Below are positions 1,432 to 10,259 of a DNA stretch of 11,391 bases, one piece after another. Source of the DNA: Bacteroidota bacterium (GTDB taxonomy: Bacteria > Bacteroidota > Bacteroidia > Bacteroidales > GCA-2748055); assembly GCA_024244665.1 (NCBI GenBank), contig JAAEOI010000262.1, positions 1 to 11,391 of the forward strand. The letters run 5' to 3'. Made by a program: the position numbers and the translations under genes. The first letter of the stretch is position 1. Each line of letters opens with the position of its first letter. The notes under the pieces are model-generated. The model worked only from the letters and a program-made list of their open reading frames with translations. It was not told where the DNA came from and ran no database searches.

Positions 1432-2850
1432 CTATTTATCATGGTTCAGGCCCTGGGCCATTTTTATGGCCGATTTTAAGGCCGCCAGTTTGTTGTTCAC
1501 TTCCTGGAGCTCTCCCTCTTCGGTAGACTCGGAGACCACGCCAGCACCTGCCTGGTAGTAGAGTACATGGTCACGAGAAAGAAAAGAGCGGATCATAATC
1601 GCATGAGTGATATCTCCATTAAAGCGGATCAGCCCAATGGTACCGCCATAATATCCCCTGCGTTTCCTTTCATAACGGTCGATCAGCTCCATGGCCCTGT
1701 ACTTCGGGGCCCCTGACAGGGTGCCAGCCGGAAAGGACTCGGCCATAATCCGTATGGTATCAGCATCTTTCGGTAGGGTCCCCGAAACTTTCGAAACCAT
1801 ATGGATCACGTGGGAGTAGAACTGGATCTCACGGTAATGCTCTACGGTTACCTTGTTGGTGGTCCTGCTAAGGTCGTTTCGTGCCAGGTCAACCAGCATC
1901 ACATGCTCGGCATTCTCTTTGTCATCCTCCGCCAGTTTTGTGGCAAGCTCCTGGTCCTCACGATCATTTCCTGTCCGCCGAAAGGTACCTGCAATGGGAT
2001 TAATGGTTGCCTTACCGCTTTTCACCTCGATCTGTGCCTCCGGCGAGGAACCAAAGAGCCTGTAGCTCCCATAGTCGAAGTAGAAGAGGTAGGGTGATGG
2101 ATTGATGGAACGAAGGGCCCGGTAAACATTAAACTCATCTCCGGTGAAGGATTGTGAGAACTGCCTGGAAAGGACAATCTGGAACACATCCCCCCTGAAG
2201 CAATGCTCCTTCCCCTTGCTCACCATGTTGCGAAAAATTTCATCAGTCAGATTGGACTCTTCACTACCGGTCAGATCAAAACCATATGTGGCGATGTTTC
2301 GGTTGTGCAGCAGGGAGCTTACATTGTCAATCTCACTCTCCCTGCCGTTAACAATGTTCTCGTAAAGCGTAAGCTCATTGGAAAAATGGTTGATGGCCAG
2401 AACAAAGCGGAAAAAATTGTAGCGCACCTCAGGAATCTCCTCCTTTTCAGGCTGGGAAGAATGGAATGTGATATCTTCGAAGTACTGAACTGCATCATAG
2501 GTGGAGTAACCAAACACTCCGTCCACCATCATATCCTCCGGCCCCGATATAATCTCAAATGAGGATATAAAGCTGTTGATCTGCTCTACCACCCCATTCT
2601 CAGCGGTGATATTTGTCTGAACAGGCTCCTCTCCGGGTACTGACGTAGTGCAGCGGCCGTGGTGCACCATCAGCTCAGCCACCGGATCCATACAGATGAA
2701 AGAGAAAGAATTCTCCTTGCTATGGTAATCCGAACTCTCCAGCAAGAGGGAATTCGGATATATATCTCTCACTTTCAGATAGATACTGACCGGCGTAATG
2801 ATGTCGGCAAGAATTCTTCGGGATTCAACCCTGACGTCTGTTTTTGTCAT
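1432..2850 (-). CDS. trpE: Anthranilate synthase component I
   Basis: This subunit converts chorismate and ammonia (from TrpG) to anthranilate, the committed step to tryptophan. From the ATG at 2850 it has 472 residues, typical of the family. Residues near 35-39 (LLLES) and the NPSPYLFYF segment (250-258) match the tryptophan feedback-binding site, so end-product inhibition is expected. The catalytic C-terminal domain shows INPIAGTFRRTG, the AEHVMLVDLARND block with the conserved His326, FPAGTLSGAPKYRAMELID (393-411), RGYYGGTIG and the NNK near the end. The frame extends upstream to a GTG at 2916, but those 22 codons are the attenuator terminator, so the internal ATG is the true start. No Shine-Dalgarno sequence is visible; the 5' region is AT-rich, as is common in Bacteroidota. 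It is the first structural gene after the Trp-rich leader. IAGTFRRTG replaces the usual IAGTRPRG, a modest deviation. Confidence 0.96.
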   Translation of the reverse strand: MTKTDVRVESRRILADIITPVSIYLKVRDIYPNSLLLESSDYHSKENSFSFICMDPVAELMVHHGRCTTSVPGEEPVQTNITAENGVVEQINSFISSFEIISGPEDMMVDGVFGYSTYDAVQYFEDITFHSSQPEKEEIPEVRYNFFRFVLAINHFSNELTLYENIVNGRESEIDNVSSLLHNRNIATYGFDLTGSEESNLTDEIFRNMVSKGKEHCFRGDVFQIVLSRQFSQSFTGDEFNVYRALRSINPSPYLFYFDYGSYRLFGSSPEAQIEVKSGKATINPIAGTFRRTGNDREDQELATKLAEDDKENAEHVMLVDLARNDLSRTTNKVTVEHYREIQFYSHVIHMVSKVSGTLPKDADTIRIMAESFPAGTLSGAPKYRAMELIDRYERKRRGYYGGTIGLIRFNGDITHAIMIRSFLSRDHVLYYQAGAGVVSESTEEGELQEVNNKLAALKSAIKMAQGLNHDK

Positions 2851-2869
2851 TTTTTCAATTTTATAGCAT

Positions 2870-2898
2870 AAAAAAAGGCTTCCGCCGAAGCGGAAACC
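2870..2898 (-). terminator. Attenuator terminator hairpin of the trp leader
   Basis: Read on the minus strand, arm GGTTTCCGC (2898-2890), loop TTCG (2889-2886) and arm GCGGAAGCC (2885-2877) form nine pairs with one G-U, capped by a UUCG tetraloop. Seven T follow directly (2876-2870). This is a textbook intrinsic terminator, and it lies 19 bases upstream of the trpE start codon. It is therefore positioned to stop transcription before the operon rather than after a gene. Confidence 0.93.
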
Positions 2899-2980
2899 CT
2901 GAATATTGTATTGCACAATAGAGGCTTAACCTATGCTCCGGTTTGTCGAAAATAGATTTGCCACCACCAATATGTGCAAT
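2894..2980 (-). promoter_or_regulatory. Competing RNA stems of the trp attenuator
   Basis: Two alternative folds are visible on the minus strand. Segment 1, ATTGCACA (2980-2973, just before the Trp codons), is perfectly complementary to TGTGCAAT (2917-2910). Segment 2 (2927-2916, AAGCCT then TATTG) can instead pair with segment 3: TATTG (2920-2916) with CAATA (2908-2904), and AAGCCT (2927-2922) with GGGTTT (2899-2894, one G-U internal and one at the end). The second fold takes away the 5' arm of the terminator. A ribosome stalled on the Trp codons would cover segment 1 and free segment 2 for the antiterminator. A ribosome that reaches the leader stop would cover segment 2 and let the terminator form. 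The pairings are read by eye; energies were not computed. Confidence 0.75.
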
Positions 2981-2996
2981 TTGATGTCATCTGCAT
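2931..2996 (-). CDS. trpL: trp operon leader peptide with three consecutive Trp codons
   Basis: This is a 21-codon open frame from the ATG at 2996-2994 to TAG at 2933-2931. Its sequence begins MQMTSNCTYWWW, so Trp residues 10-12 are encoded by TGG TGG TGG at 2969-2961, flanked by other aromatic residues (Tyr9, Tyr15, Phe16). A second ATG at 2990 could also serve as the start; there is no clear Shine-Dalgarno sequence. The gene ends 80 bases before trpE, and the terminator hairpin lies between them. Its role is regulatory: the speed of translation over the Trp codons reports charged tRNA-Trp to the folding of the downstream RNA. Three rare Trp codons in a row in so short a frame, in exactly this position, are hard to explain otherwise. 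Confidence 0.9.
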   Translation of the reverse strand: MQMTSNCTYWWWQIYFRQTGA

Positions 2997-3010
2997 CTGT
3001 TTACAAAGCT

Positions 3011-3042
3011 CAAATTAAAAGAAAGATTTCTATTAATCCAAA
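3011..3042 (-). promoter_or_regulatory. Putative Bacteroidota-type promoter of the trp operon
   Basis: On the minus strand, TTTG (3042-3039) is followed after 20 bases by TTAATTTG (3018-3011). This resembles the Bacteroidota housekeeping pattern TTTG - about 20 bases - TAnnTTTG, with one mismatch in the -7 box. Transcription would start near 3004, just before the leader peptide ATG at 2996, giving a leader RNA of about 135 bases up to the terminator. This fits the attenuator but has not been tested. Confidence 0.5.
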
Positions 3043-3080
3043 TTTGATTACTTTCGACTTGAAATTTTCGAGGACTGCTC

Positions 3081-3860
3081 ATGGCAAAAAAATACTTCAG
3101 GAACATCGCTCTGTTTTTCACCATATGGGTGATAGTCATGGTTATATACGCAGTATCTGGAAAGGTAACCAGTTTCGATTATCTCTGGAAATTTTTTCTG
3201 CTTCCTGCTCTATTTCTATCCGTTCTCGCTGCCGCAGCCACAAGTTTCGAATACCTTTTCAAGGTCAGGAATGGAGTCAACTGGATCTTCCTGTTAGTAG
3301 CTGTCGGGCTTGACCAGGGAATAAAGGCCTGGCTCTTCTCCCTTGATTGGGAGTCCATTTCCATTCCGCTCATCAAACCAGTTTTTTATATCGAGCCCAC
3401 ACAGAATACCCTTGGCTCCTACCTGTGGGTACTGCTTAGTTTAAAGGAGGGATCACACCTGCTCAACATCATCCTGTTCAGTCTTATCGGTGTCCTCTTT
3501 ATCGAGATATGGCGCTTCTATGTAAGCAGGAAGCGGAACAGTTTCTGGATCAATGGATTTATACACCTTTTCATGGCCGGACTGGCAGCCAATCTGATCG
3601 ACAATGCCTTCTGGGGAGGATCACTGGATTACATCACCATCAAACCCTTCTACACCTTTGATTTGAAGGATCTCTACATCACCCTCTGTGAACTCTTCCT
3701 GATCACTGAGCTCATCGACAACAGGCTGCTTAAAAGATTCCTGAGCATGCCCAAGGAGGACAGCAGGCGAATCAATAAAGACTTTATCGGGTTTATCAAG
3801 AAAGATTTCGGGATCGGTAAAGGCAAAAACAAAAACGAGGACCAGGAGAAACCTGGTTAA
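3081..3860 (+). CDS. LspA-like (signal peptidase II family) membrane protein, extended
   Basis: This 259-residue polytopic membrane protein resembles signal peptidase II, the aspartyl protease that cleaves prolipoprotein signal peptides. The family landmarks appear in order: LDQGIK (Asp78, Gln79, Lys82) for the usual DQxxK; PTQNTLGSY (107-113) in place of the usual NxGAAF motif; then AGLAANLID (Asp174) and YTFDLKDLYI (Asp197), which correspond to the two catalytic aspartates in NxIDR and FNxAD. Normal LspA has about 160-200 residues. This one has about 70 extra N-terminal residues with two hydrophobic segments (roughly 8-25 and 36-55) and a charged, Lys-rich tail (about 219-259). The Arg after NLID is Asn here, and the GG before it is MAGLAAN. 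An LspA fold is likely, but the substrate may differ, and the genome may hold a canonical lspA elsewhere. CGAGGA at 3068-3073 is a plausible ribosome-binding site. It is transcribed divergently from the trp leader. Confidence 0.7.
   Translation: MAKKYFRNIALFFTIWVIVMVIYAVSGKVTSFDYLWKFFLLPALFLSVLAAAATSFEYLFKVRNGVNWIFLLVAVGLDQGIKAWLFSLDWESISIPLIKPVFYIEPTQNTLGSYLWVLLSLKEGSHLLNIILFSLIGVLFIEIWRFYVSRKRNSFWINGFIHLFMAGLAANLIDNAFWGGSLDYITIKPFYTFDLKDLYITLCELFLITELIDNRLLKRFLSMPKEDSRRINKDFIGFIKKDFGIGKGKNKNEDQEKPG
3835..3857 (-). terminator. Weak hairpin after the FMN-binding gene, possible terminator
   Basis: ACCAGG (3841-3846) and CCTGGT (3852-3857) form a perfect 6-bp stem with a 5-base loop. On the minus strand it begins at the stop codon of the FMN-binding gene and is followed, after five bases, by two runs of five T broken by one G (3835-3825). 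It lies inside the 3' end of the convergent LspA-like gene. The stem is short and the T-run is offset, so termination is only a possibility. Confidence 0.35.
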
Positions 3861-8705: not shown

Positions 8706-9254
8706 ATGATTCTGAAAGAACAACACCAGCTGAGAAAAATCCGAAAGGGAGACATCGATGCTTTCGAAAAACTTTTTTTCAGCTTCTATCCCGGGTTGTT
8801 GAGATATGCTGAGACACTGGTAAGAAAGTCCGAGATTGCCGAAGAGATTGTACAGGATGTGTTCTATAATGTATGGAAAAACAGAGACTCCATCAGAATC
8901 ACCCAGAGTTGGAAAAGCTACCTCTACCGTGCGGTATACAACAACTCAATGATGTACCTGAGGAAGAGACGCAGGGAGTTCAGCCTGGAGGAGAGCCTGT
9001 TTACGGAACAGGAGGGAGACTCTCCTGATCCCTTTCAGGAACTGGAGTACCAGGAAGTGTCGGCTATTGTTTCAGACATCCTTGGCGTGCTGCCTGAACG
9101 AACCCGTGAGATTTTCCTGCTGAACAGACAGGAAGGCTTGAAATACAGGGAGATTGCAGAGCAACTTTCCATCTCTGTAAAAACTGTGGAAGCGAATATG
9201 GGCAAAGCACTAAAAGCATTGAGAAGTAGCTTGGAAAAATACAGAAATGAGTAG
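8706..9254 (+). CDS. ECF RNA polymerase sigma factor (Bacteroidota expansion type)
   Basis: This 182-residue sigma-70 family factor has only regions 2 and 4, which defines the ECF group. Region 2 spans about 16-88, with FEKLFFSFYPGLLRYAETLV, the core-binding EIAEEIVQDVFYNVWKNR and a basic RKRRR end. Region 4 spans about 120-178, with LPERTREIFLLNRQEGLKYREIAEQLSISVKTVEANMGKALKALR containing the DNA-binding helix-turn-helix. It matches the family abundant in Bacteroidota that pairs with FecR-type anti-sigma factors. The anti-sigma gene follows after 6 bases. Its activity should depend on release from that partner. The target promoter is unknown; the nested repeats just upstream and the downstream STN-protein gene are candidate targets. 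No close Shine-Dalgarno sequence precedes the ATG at 8706, which is the first ATG in frame. Confidence 0.93.
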   Translation: MILKEQHQLRKIRKGDIDAFEKLFFSFYPGLLRYAETLVRKSEIAEEIVQDVFYNVWKNRDSIRITQSWKSYLYRAVYNNSMMYLRKRRREFSLEESLFTEQEGDSPDPFQELEYQEVSAIVSDILGVLPERTREIFLLNRQEGLKYREIAEQLSISVKTVEANMGKALKALRSSLEKYRNE

Positions 9255-9260
9255 AGAGCC

Positions 9261-10259
9261 ATGAAGAAAAAAGAAGAGATATGGGTCTCCATGGCCAGGT
9301 ACCTTGCCGGTGAAATGGAGATGAAAGAGGAGATTGAATTCAGAAAGAGGTCTGAGAAAGACAGCGATCTGCAAAAAGAACTGGACCAAATGGAAAAGAG
9401 CTGGAAATATTTTAATGATCATCCATCGCCGGATGATGGTGATCCCGGAAGTGCATGGAACAAACTGCGCGACCGGCTGGAGGCCGACGGCTTGCTTGAC
9501 AAATTTCACTCCGGAGCCGGGAAACGACGCATTATACCAGCCCTCAGGATCGCTGCATCGATCCTGGTCATTCTGGCCATAGGGGTCCCTTCCCTCTGGT
9601 TTGCGCTGAACCGTAGCGAGGATAGCCAGGCCACCCTGCAACACTTCTCCGAAAAGGGTGTCACCACCATCGACCTTCCCGACGGAAGCCGGGTCTTCCT
9701 CAATGAAGGATCTGAGATCACCTACCCGGGCAGTTTTGACCAGGAGAGGGAAGTTAAACTGGAGGGAGAAGCCTTTTTTGAGGTAATGTCCGATCCGGTC
9801 AATCCGTTTACTGTAAGGTCGGGCCGTGTTGTTGTTTCCGTACTGGGAACCTCCTTTAATATAAAAGAAAGAGGCCGGGAAGACAATGTTGAAGTGTTCG
9901 TGGAGACCGGGAAAGTAAGAATGTCCATGGATAATGCAGATGAGTTTATCACACTTGAACAGGGCGACCTGGGTAGGGCCGGAACCTCTTCCATGGCCAG
10001 CGGGGAACAATCCGATCCAAATTATATTGCATGGAAAACAAAAGATTTTAAATTTGTAGACGAAGAACTTGGTAAGGTCCTCCGTGAACTTGAAGAGTCA
10101 TACCATGTGGAGATCCGTACCGAAGGCATCCGGCTTAGCGAGTTGAGAATTACTTCCACCTACAGGGAGCAGTCCATCGATTCAATCCTGGAAACCATTG
10201 GTGCGGCATTCGGACTTAACGTTAACAAAAAAGAGGAGCTCTACTACCTGAAACCCTAA
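9261..10259 (+). CDS. FecR-type transmembrane anti-sigma factor with DUF4974
   Basis: This 332-residue inner-membrane protein has a cytoplasmic sigma-binding segment (1-90), one transmembrane helix (about 91-116, IIPALRIAASILVILAIGVP...), a periplasmic FecR domain (about 132-226: LPDGSRVFLNEGSEITYP, VKLEGEAFFEV, NPFTVRSGRVVVSVLGTSFNI, VETGKV) and a C-terminal DUF4974 domain (about 258-330: FKFVDEELGKVLRELEESYHVEI, SILETIGAAFGLNV). In the known FecIR systems the periplasmic part senses the STN domain of an outer-membrane receptor and controls release of the sigma factor. DUF4974 itself is distantly STN-like. It sits between the sigma gene (6 bases) and the STN-containing gene (8 bases downstream), a tight three-gene unit. 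Nothing is truncated. Confidence 0.93.
   Translation: MKKKEEIWVSMARYLAGEMEMKEEIEFRKRSEKDSDLQKELDQMEKSWKYFNDHPSPDDGDPGSAWNKLRDRLEADGLLDKFHSGAGKRRIIPALRIAASILVILAIGVPSLWFALNRSEDSQATLQHFSEKGVTTIDLPDGSRVFLNEGSEITYPGSFDQEREVKLEGEAFFEVMSDPVNPFTVRSGRVVVSVLGTSFNIKERGREDNVEVFVETGKVRMSMDNADEFITLEQGDLGRAGTSSMASGEQSDPNYIAWKTKDFKFVDEELGKVLRELEESYHVEIRTEGIRLSELRITSTYREQSIDSILETIGAAFGLNVNKKEELYYLKP

Follow-up and report, generated by a model that had tools for sequence, protein, structure and literature searches.

A Trp-codon leader before trpEGD in a Bacteroidota genome, and probable pairing of leader ends with terminator loops in trp attenuators of the phylum

What decides whether transcription enters the trpEGD genes of this Bacteroidota bacterium, and which RNA strands take part in the decision? 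The stretch of DNA analysed here (the window, 11,391 nucleotides) carries the three genes on its minus strand. A sequence-only reading had placed before trpE a promoter-like sequence, a leader peptide with adjacent Trp codons, a 1:2 stem, a 2:3 antiterminator, and an intrinsic terminator, and had interpreted them as a ribosome-mediated trp attenuator. All of these elements are present on the minus strand in the order claimed. The Trp-run open reading frame (ORF), the mutually exclusive predicted folds, and the terminator are kept in the close clade and across the phylum, and the leader is by far best read as a ribosome-mediated trp attenuator. The same reading had singled the leader out as a clear attenuator in Bacteroidota; it is still best understood in that way, but the type has already been described there as Rfam family RF01692. 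The features are as follows.

3042-3039, minus strand: TTTG, -33-like promoter element, read in the sequence; TTTGGA is kept in 14/14 clade members
3018-3011, minus strand: TTAATTTG, -7-like element, 20 nt from the -33 element, 7/8 match to TAnnTTTG
2996-2931, minus strand: leader peptide ORF, MQMTSNCTYWWWQIYFRQTGA, with stop TAG at 2933-2931
2990-2988, minus strand: inner ATG, probable conserved start of the leader ORF from the alignment of relatives
2980-2973, minus strand: strand 1 of the 1:2 hairpin base, AUUGCACA, from predicted folds and clade pairing
2969-2961, minus strand: three adjacent Trp codons, read in the sequence
2951-2947, minus strand: R, UUUCG, pairing with CGGAG at 2940-2936 in the predicted naked fold and so hiding S
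2941-2935, minus strand: S, CCGGAGC, predicted outer strand of the antiterminator, 22 nt from the start of the last Trp codon
2924-2904, minus strand: inner part of the predicted antiterminator, CCU 2924-2922 with 2900-2898 and a hairpin of UAUUGUG 2920-2914 with UACAAUA 2910-2904
2917-2910, minus strand: strand 2 of the 1:2 hairpin base, UGUGCAAU, from predicted folds and clade pairing
2900-2875, minus strand: terminator hairpin 3:4 with loop UUCG, 2900-2890 paired with 2885-2875
2891-2885, minus strand: D, GCUUCGG, loop of the terminator with its flanks, pairing with S in the predicted fold
2876-2870, minus strand: run of seven T, read in the sequence
2850-1432, minus strand: trpE, starting at 2850, Pfam Chorismate_bind and Anth_synt_I_N
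1442-852, minus strand: trpG (GATase), Pfam
838-2, minus strand: trpD, running off the window, from the ORF list and Pfam

The promoter-like sequence is of the Bacteroidota type: its boxes are close to the consensus quoted for the phylum, TTTG / TAnnTTTG (PMC7366714), and a sigma-70 promoter scan of the leader region found 0 sites. Judged from these boxes, the leader transcript would start near 3004. The promoter sits in the gap between the operon and a divergent gene (3081-3860, plus strand) with a signal peptidase II (Peptidase_A8) domain; elsewhere in the window, at 8706-10259 (plus strand), an ECF sigma factor is followed by a FecR-type anti-sigma gene. The ORF of 21 codons and its Trp codons stand as first read, but the peptide itself probably has 19 residues and starts at the inner ATG, since relatives align to that codon at 2990. 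The 1:2 stem that had been proposed (8 bp) is present as the base of a larger hairpin, which also holds 2967-2964:2921-2918, 2962-2960:2925-2923, 2958-2952:2934-2928, and 2951-2947:2940-2936. Folding energies, a check suggested at the outset, are -25 to -28 kcal/mol for the leader up to the terminator, which includes the 1:2 hairpin, -17.4 kcal/mol for the terminator, and -19.1 kcal/mol for the antiterminator fold predicted with a stalled ribosome. The terminator, its UUCG loop, and the seven T are in place as described.

The window leader is well supported as a trp attenuator and ordinary in kind. Leaders of this kind are already known as RF01692 (Bacteroid-trp), which Weinberg et al. 2010 give in their Table 1 as a Bacteroidete tryptophan peptide leader RNA (PMC2864571). 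The window resembles this family in belonging to Bacteroidota, in being cis-regulatory, and in having a Trp-codon leader ORF before trp genes. The RF01692 model gives no match at E<=5 in the whole window or at E<=10 in 2850-3060; the family cut-off is 49 bits. At the gathering score it is found at 1/17 loci, where it matches the trp leader of L077, and it exceeds the cut-off in 29/41 genomes of the family to which L077 belongs. The model ends in the 5' arm of the terminator, whereas the predicted antiterminator of the window uses the loop and the 3' arm; the model therefore cannot carry the pairing of S with D (S:D). In the Escherichia coli trpL leader, as outlined in PMC1183508 and PMC5373646, a Trp leader peptide and a 1:2 hairpin accompany an antiterminator that competes with a terminator, and a ribosome at the stop codon hides a strand of the antiterminator. 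The window shares these traits, including the predicted masking by a ribosome at the stop codon. However, region 2 of E. coli pairs with the 5' arm of the terminator, whereas S is predicted to pair with the loop and 3' arm. An Rfam model search found no match to the Trp_leader family RF00513 in the window. For Flavobacterium psychrophilum, also a member of the phylum with structured leaders before amino-acid operons, a passage of PMC9723704 describes strong clues for leader-peptide attenuation; that passage gives clues only, without the anatomy or antiterminator of a trp leader.

The closest TrpE proteins come from uncultured Bacteroidales genomes (L001-L003, 82-80% identity), and TrpE is found at E<=1e-100 in 22/28 genomes of the GTDB family of L001's genome. 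The leader is common to the window and 13 relatives with TrpE identity of at least 75%. These are the 14 loci at that identity less L096, whose contig ends at trpE; L093, L095, L098, L107, and L109 are the genomes of L001-L005 and were dropped before alignment, and L106, L108, and L110-L113, which have WWW leaders with other terminators, were left out of the alignment and counts. The proposed conservation check was borne out, with the Trp run TGGTGGTGG kept in 14/14 sequences. Terminator pairs are formed in 98.0% of cells, with three pairs showing double changes, and the 1:2 base helix in 80.0%, with its core pairs kept. Covariation was found for part of the proposed pairings: five pairs of 1:2 and 3:4 are double-changed, compared with a shuffled mean of 2.4 (15/500 shuffles reach five, kinship ignored), but none was found in the 2:3 segment of this 14-sequence alignment, because segment 3 hardly varies. 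The columns of the inner antiterminator hairpin are 98.6% paired, without double changes, and for the 2':3 segment own and swapped partners behave alike (-6.85 vs -6.68). Counting from the first base of the last Trp codon, the motif CGGAG lies 22-23 nt downstream in 14/14. An indel in L100 and L101 shifts it into another reading frame while its bases and distance are kept, so CGGAG is conserved as RNA rather than as peptide. The loop of the terminator reads CTTCGG in 13/14 sequences and CTCCGG in L105, which still pairs with CCGGAG. CGGAG could alternatively be kept for its hairpin with UUUCG, and CUUCGG as an ordinary stable tetraloop.

Trp-run leaders are common before trpE in Bacteroidota. 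We surveyed the regions upstream of trpE at 77 named Bacteroidota loci and in the window, 78 in all, for a short ORF within 350 nt in which two or more of three codons are Trp; L030, L036, and L054, with too little upstream sequence, were excluded from the counts. Such a leader is present in 71/78 regions, compared with 2/78 on the opposite strand and 66/1,560 dinucleotide shuffles, and it has a terminator behind it in 62/78, compared with 0/78 and 0/1,560, respectively. Among nine amino acids tested, none other reaches 71; Phe is next with 60, as AT-rich DNA with its many TTT codons would lead one to expect. That only 62 regions have both the leader and the terminator could be taken to mean that the Trp-rich ORF is accidental and that the terminator is constitutive or otherwise controlled, by Rho, an RNA-binding protein, or a T-box. 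Against this stand the excess of Trp-run ORFs over the opposite strand, the result of the Rfam search, in which neither a T-box nor another leader family matched the window significantly, and the fixed distance of S from the Trp codons in relatives; we consider an accidental ORF highly improbable. Seven trpE loci (L033, L039, L045, L060, L063, L066, and L075) have no Trp-run leader within 350 nt, and one of them, L039, has a terminator as well as a leader-like ORF that contains a single Trp codon.

To identify the antiterminator, we matched the sequence that follows the Trp codons of each leader against the 5' arm of the terminator (2:3) and against the loop and first bases of the 3' arm (D). 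Classical 2:3 pairing throughout the phylum, which had first been assumed, was not supported by shuffles: in a first set of 62 loci, p<=0.05 is reached by 2:3 in 4 (three of them tandem elements), where about 3 are expected. The S:D test was undertaken because shuffles did not support 2:3 in this set, and here S:D reaches the same threshold in 32/62. The idea that S:D is universal in the phylum was dropped in turn, as a second set of 68 new loci shows both designs (S:D 23/68, 2:3 28/68; L173, L212, L226, and L236, being the genomes of L077, L071, L032, and L056, had been removed). Among 140 loci combined, 47 have S:D only, 27 have 2:3 only, 7 have both, and 59 have neither. A further 28 RF01692 loci give S:D in 23 and 2:3 in 0; they derive from 33 loci, of which L263, L275, L283, and L291 have no analysable leader and L289, which has the same leader as L069, was counted once.

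The S:D complementarity exceeds that of control segments. With dinucleotide shuffles it holds in 48/140 loci and in 21/29 RF01692 loci (the 29 include the L069 duplicate). The corresponding counts are 4/140 and 2/29 for the stretch before the Trp codons, 5/97 and 0/29 for the stretch after the terminator, and 9/140 and 2/29 for reversed D. When only the loop is considered, at least four Watson-Crick pairs are found in 63/140 loci, compared with 24.6 for shuffled loops; since a control segment taken from the start of the ORF reaches 41, part of this excess is compositional. The S:D pairs are of 25 different kinds, for example GTCGTGA:TCACGAC, ACCGAGAGTT:AACTCTCGGT, CCGAGTAAGT:GTTTACTCGG, and GTTGGGATGA:TCATCCCGGT, and swapped partners reach the energy of the true pairs in 0/5,000 permutations (kinship ignored). 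An antiterminator whose outer helix joins the end of the leader ORF to the terminator loop and 3' arm is probably present in many Bacteroidota leaders, including that of the window.

In the window alone, S (2941-2935) can pair with 2891-2885, yet p for S:D is 0.16-0.2, above 0.05, and among the 14 clade members L105 alone reaches p<=0.05, for both pairings. A purely classical switch would pair region 2, AAGCCU at 2927-2922, with GGGUUU in the 5' arm of the terminator, leaving S and D as a hairpin arm and a tetraloop. This 6-bp match is indeed present, and the method recovers 2:3 where it is known, in E. coli trpL (2:3 p=0.02, S:D p=0.997). Sphingobacteriaceae leaders (L187, L189, L237-L256) also show it, in 16/21 loci at p<=0.05 compared with 3/21 for S:D, so that the classical design exists within the phylum. 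However, the match in the window is no better than in shuffles (p 0.35-0.40), 2:3 is at the expected level in the first set and absent from the 28 RF01692 loci, and CGGAG is kept in all 14 clade members despite the frame change. We therefore regard a purely classical switch in the window as unlikely.

The position of S is consistent with release by a ribosome on the Trp codons. Measured from the first base of the last Trp codon, S starts at a distance of 18-23 nt in 42/47 loci with S:D only and of 19-25 nt in 28/28 RF01692 loci. S overlaps the stop codon or lies directly next to it in 35/47 S:D-only loci (10.9 expected with uniform placement) and in 16/28 RF01692 loci, so S keeps its distance to the Trp codons more strictly than that to the stop.

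How the pairings would exchange is suggested by equilibrium folding of partial transcripts, in which the ribosome edge was set at an assumed 13 nt. The mean probability that S is unpaired in the 47 loci is 0.27 in naked RNA, 0.62 with a ribosome on the last Trp codon, and 0.38 with one on the first. When the RNA is extended base by base, S:D reaches a probability of at least 0.5 in 46/47 loci with a stalled ribosome and in 18/47 without one; in the window its peak is 1.0 and 0.08, respectively. The stalled window fold is one long hairpin with the outer helix 2941-2935:2891-2885 and inner helices 2931-2930:2893-2892, 2927-2926:2896-2895, 2924-2922:2900-2898, and 2920-2914:2910-2904. The 2:3-region fold put forward earlier thus survives as the inner part of a longer predicted antiterminator that extends from 2941 to 2885 and takes in the terminator loop. 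With a ribosome at the stop codon, S is removed and the terminator is predicted to form. The folds are mutually exclusive, with the terminator predicted without a ribosome or with one at the stop and the antiterminator with a stall on Trp codons.

Taken as a mechanism, RNA without a ribosome would form the large 1:2 hairpin, the tip of which (UUUCG:CGGAG) would hide S and let the terminator form. With ample Trp, a ribosome would reach the stop codon (2933-2931) and cover S, and the terminator would again form. When Trp is scarce, the ribosome would halt on 2969-2961 and break the 1:2 hairpin, leaving S exposed; once the polymerase has made the terminator loop, S could pair with D (CCGGAGC:GCUUCGG) and close the long antiterminator hairpin, whose inner helices would also hold the 5' arm of the terminator (2924-2922:2900-2898). 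This structure would block the terminator until the polymerase clears the T run. The basis of this mechanism consists of the parts of the leader, their conservation, complementarity above controls in relatives, and predicted switching. We infer the transcription start, the stalling of the ribosome, the kinetic order of events, and the effect on regulation. On this basis the leader is quite likely a ribosome-mediated transcription attenuator of trpEGD with the S:D outer helix as its antiterminator.

The completed terminator beats S:D at equilibrium in 40/47 loci, so antitermination by S:D must be kinetic and the pairing may be transient; in the stalled window the terminator overtakes only 7 of the 9 nt after D is complete. 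The greater stability of the final terminators would also suit a real S:D pairing with another role, in polymerase stalling or in an unusual pseudoknotted terminator. We judge such a role improbable, because S lies about 20-22 nt beyond the Trp codons, where stalling would expose it, and this fits antitermination directly.

Beyond the window, we lean towards the view that many Bacteroidota trp attenuators have as antiterminator strand the last part of the leader ORF, set about 20-22 nt beyond the final Trp codon, which pairs with the terminator loop and incoming 3' arm and, once a ribosome has stalled, caps the loop before the terminator nucleates, that such loop capping coexists in the phylum with the classical design and, in the family of L009, with a tandem arrangement, and that the window belongs to the loop-capping group. 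The S:D design looks new: in the open-access literature searched, we found no description of an S:D or loop-paired antiterminator in Bacteroidota trp leaders. The window leader serves as an entry to what looks like a phylum-wide variant antiterminator. If true, loop capping is a second solution to a control problem that is otherwise solved by pairing with the 5' arm, and may account for the joint variation of terminator loops and leader ends. The findings also suggest extending RF01692, since its model stops inside the terminator and misses lineages like that of the window. Attenuation requires a ribosome that keeps pace with RNA polymerase. To our knowledge, the extent of ribosome-polymerase coupling in Bacteroidota has been little studied; leaders found throughout the phylum with S at a near-fixed distance from the Trp codons make it directly testable.

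A very conserved second Trp-codon leader lies 230-400 nt upstream of trpE in L009 and its relatives (L114-L165) and is absent from the window. It has the form CAATATGGCT...AGCCATATTG, encodes a peptide ..IWLPWWGLLT, and usually has its own terminator together with a classical antiterminator whose strands covary. Tandem attenuators are reported for Salmonella mgtCBR (PMC3641672). A model of the element (R1, E<=0.01) matches 53/80 genomes of the GTDB family of L009's genome; trpE is downstream of 51/54 matches, and most genomes searched have a single copy before trpE. As a sequence pattern, the element is found in 2/393 genomes of the order, including L009's own. Among 57 second elements, 40 have their own terminator and 17 have none, and 15 have no in-frame start. 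In the 24 long forms, strand B pairs with terminator arm C at -10.71 compared with -8.33 for swapped partners (0/2,000 permutations, kinship ignored), so a classical 2:3 attenuator fits these forms better. The element, which resembles a three-way junction, had been considered as a riboswitch; a second classical Trp attenuator is the better fit where it has its own start and terminator. Short forms without start or terminator are found in L130, L131, L136, L139, L142, L144, L146-L148, L150, L153, L157, L161, L162, and L164. They keep much of the element sequence, those of the L130 type nearly all of it, a retention that a peptide leader would not explain.
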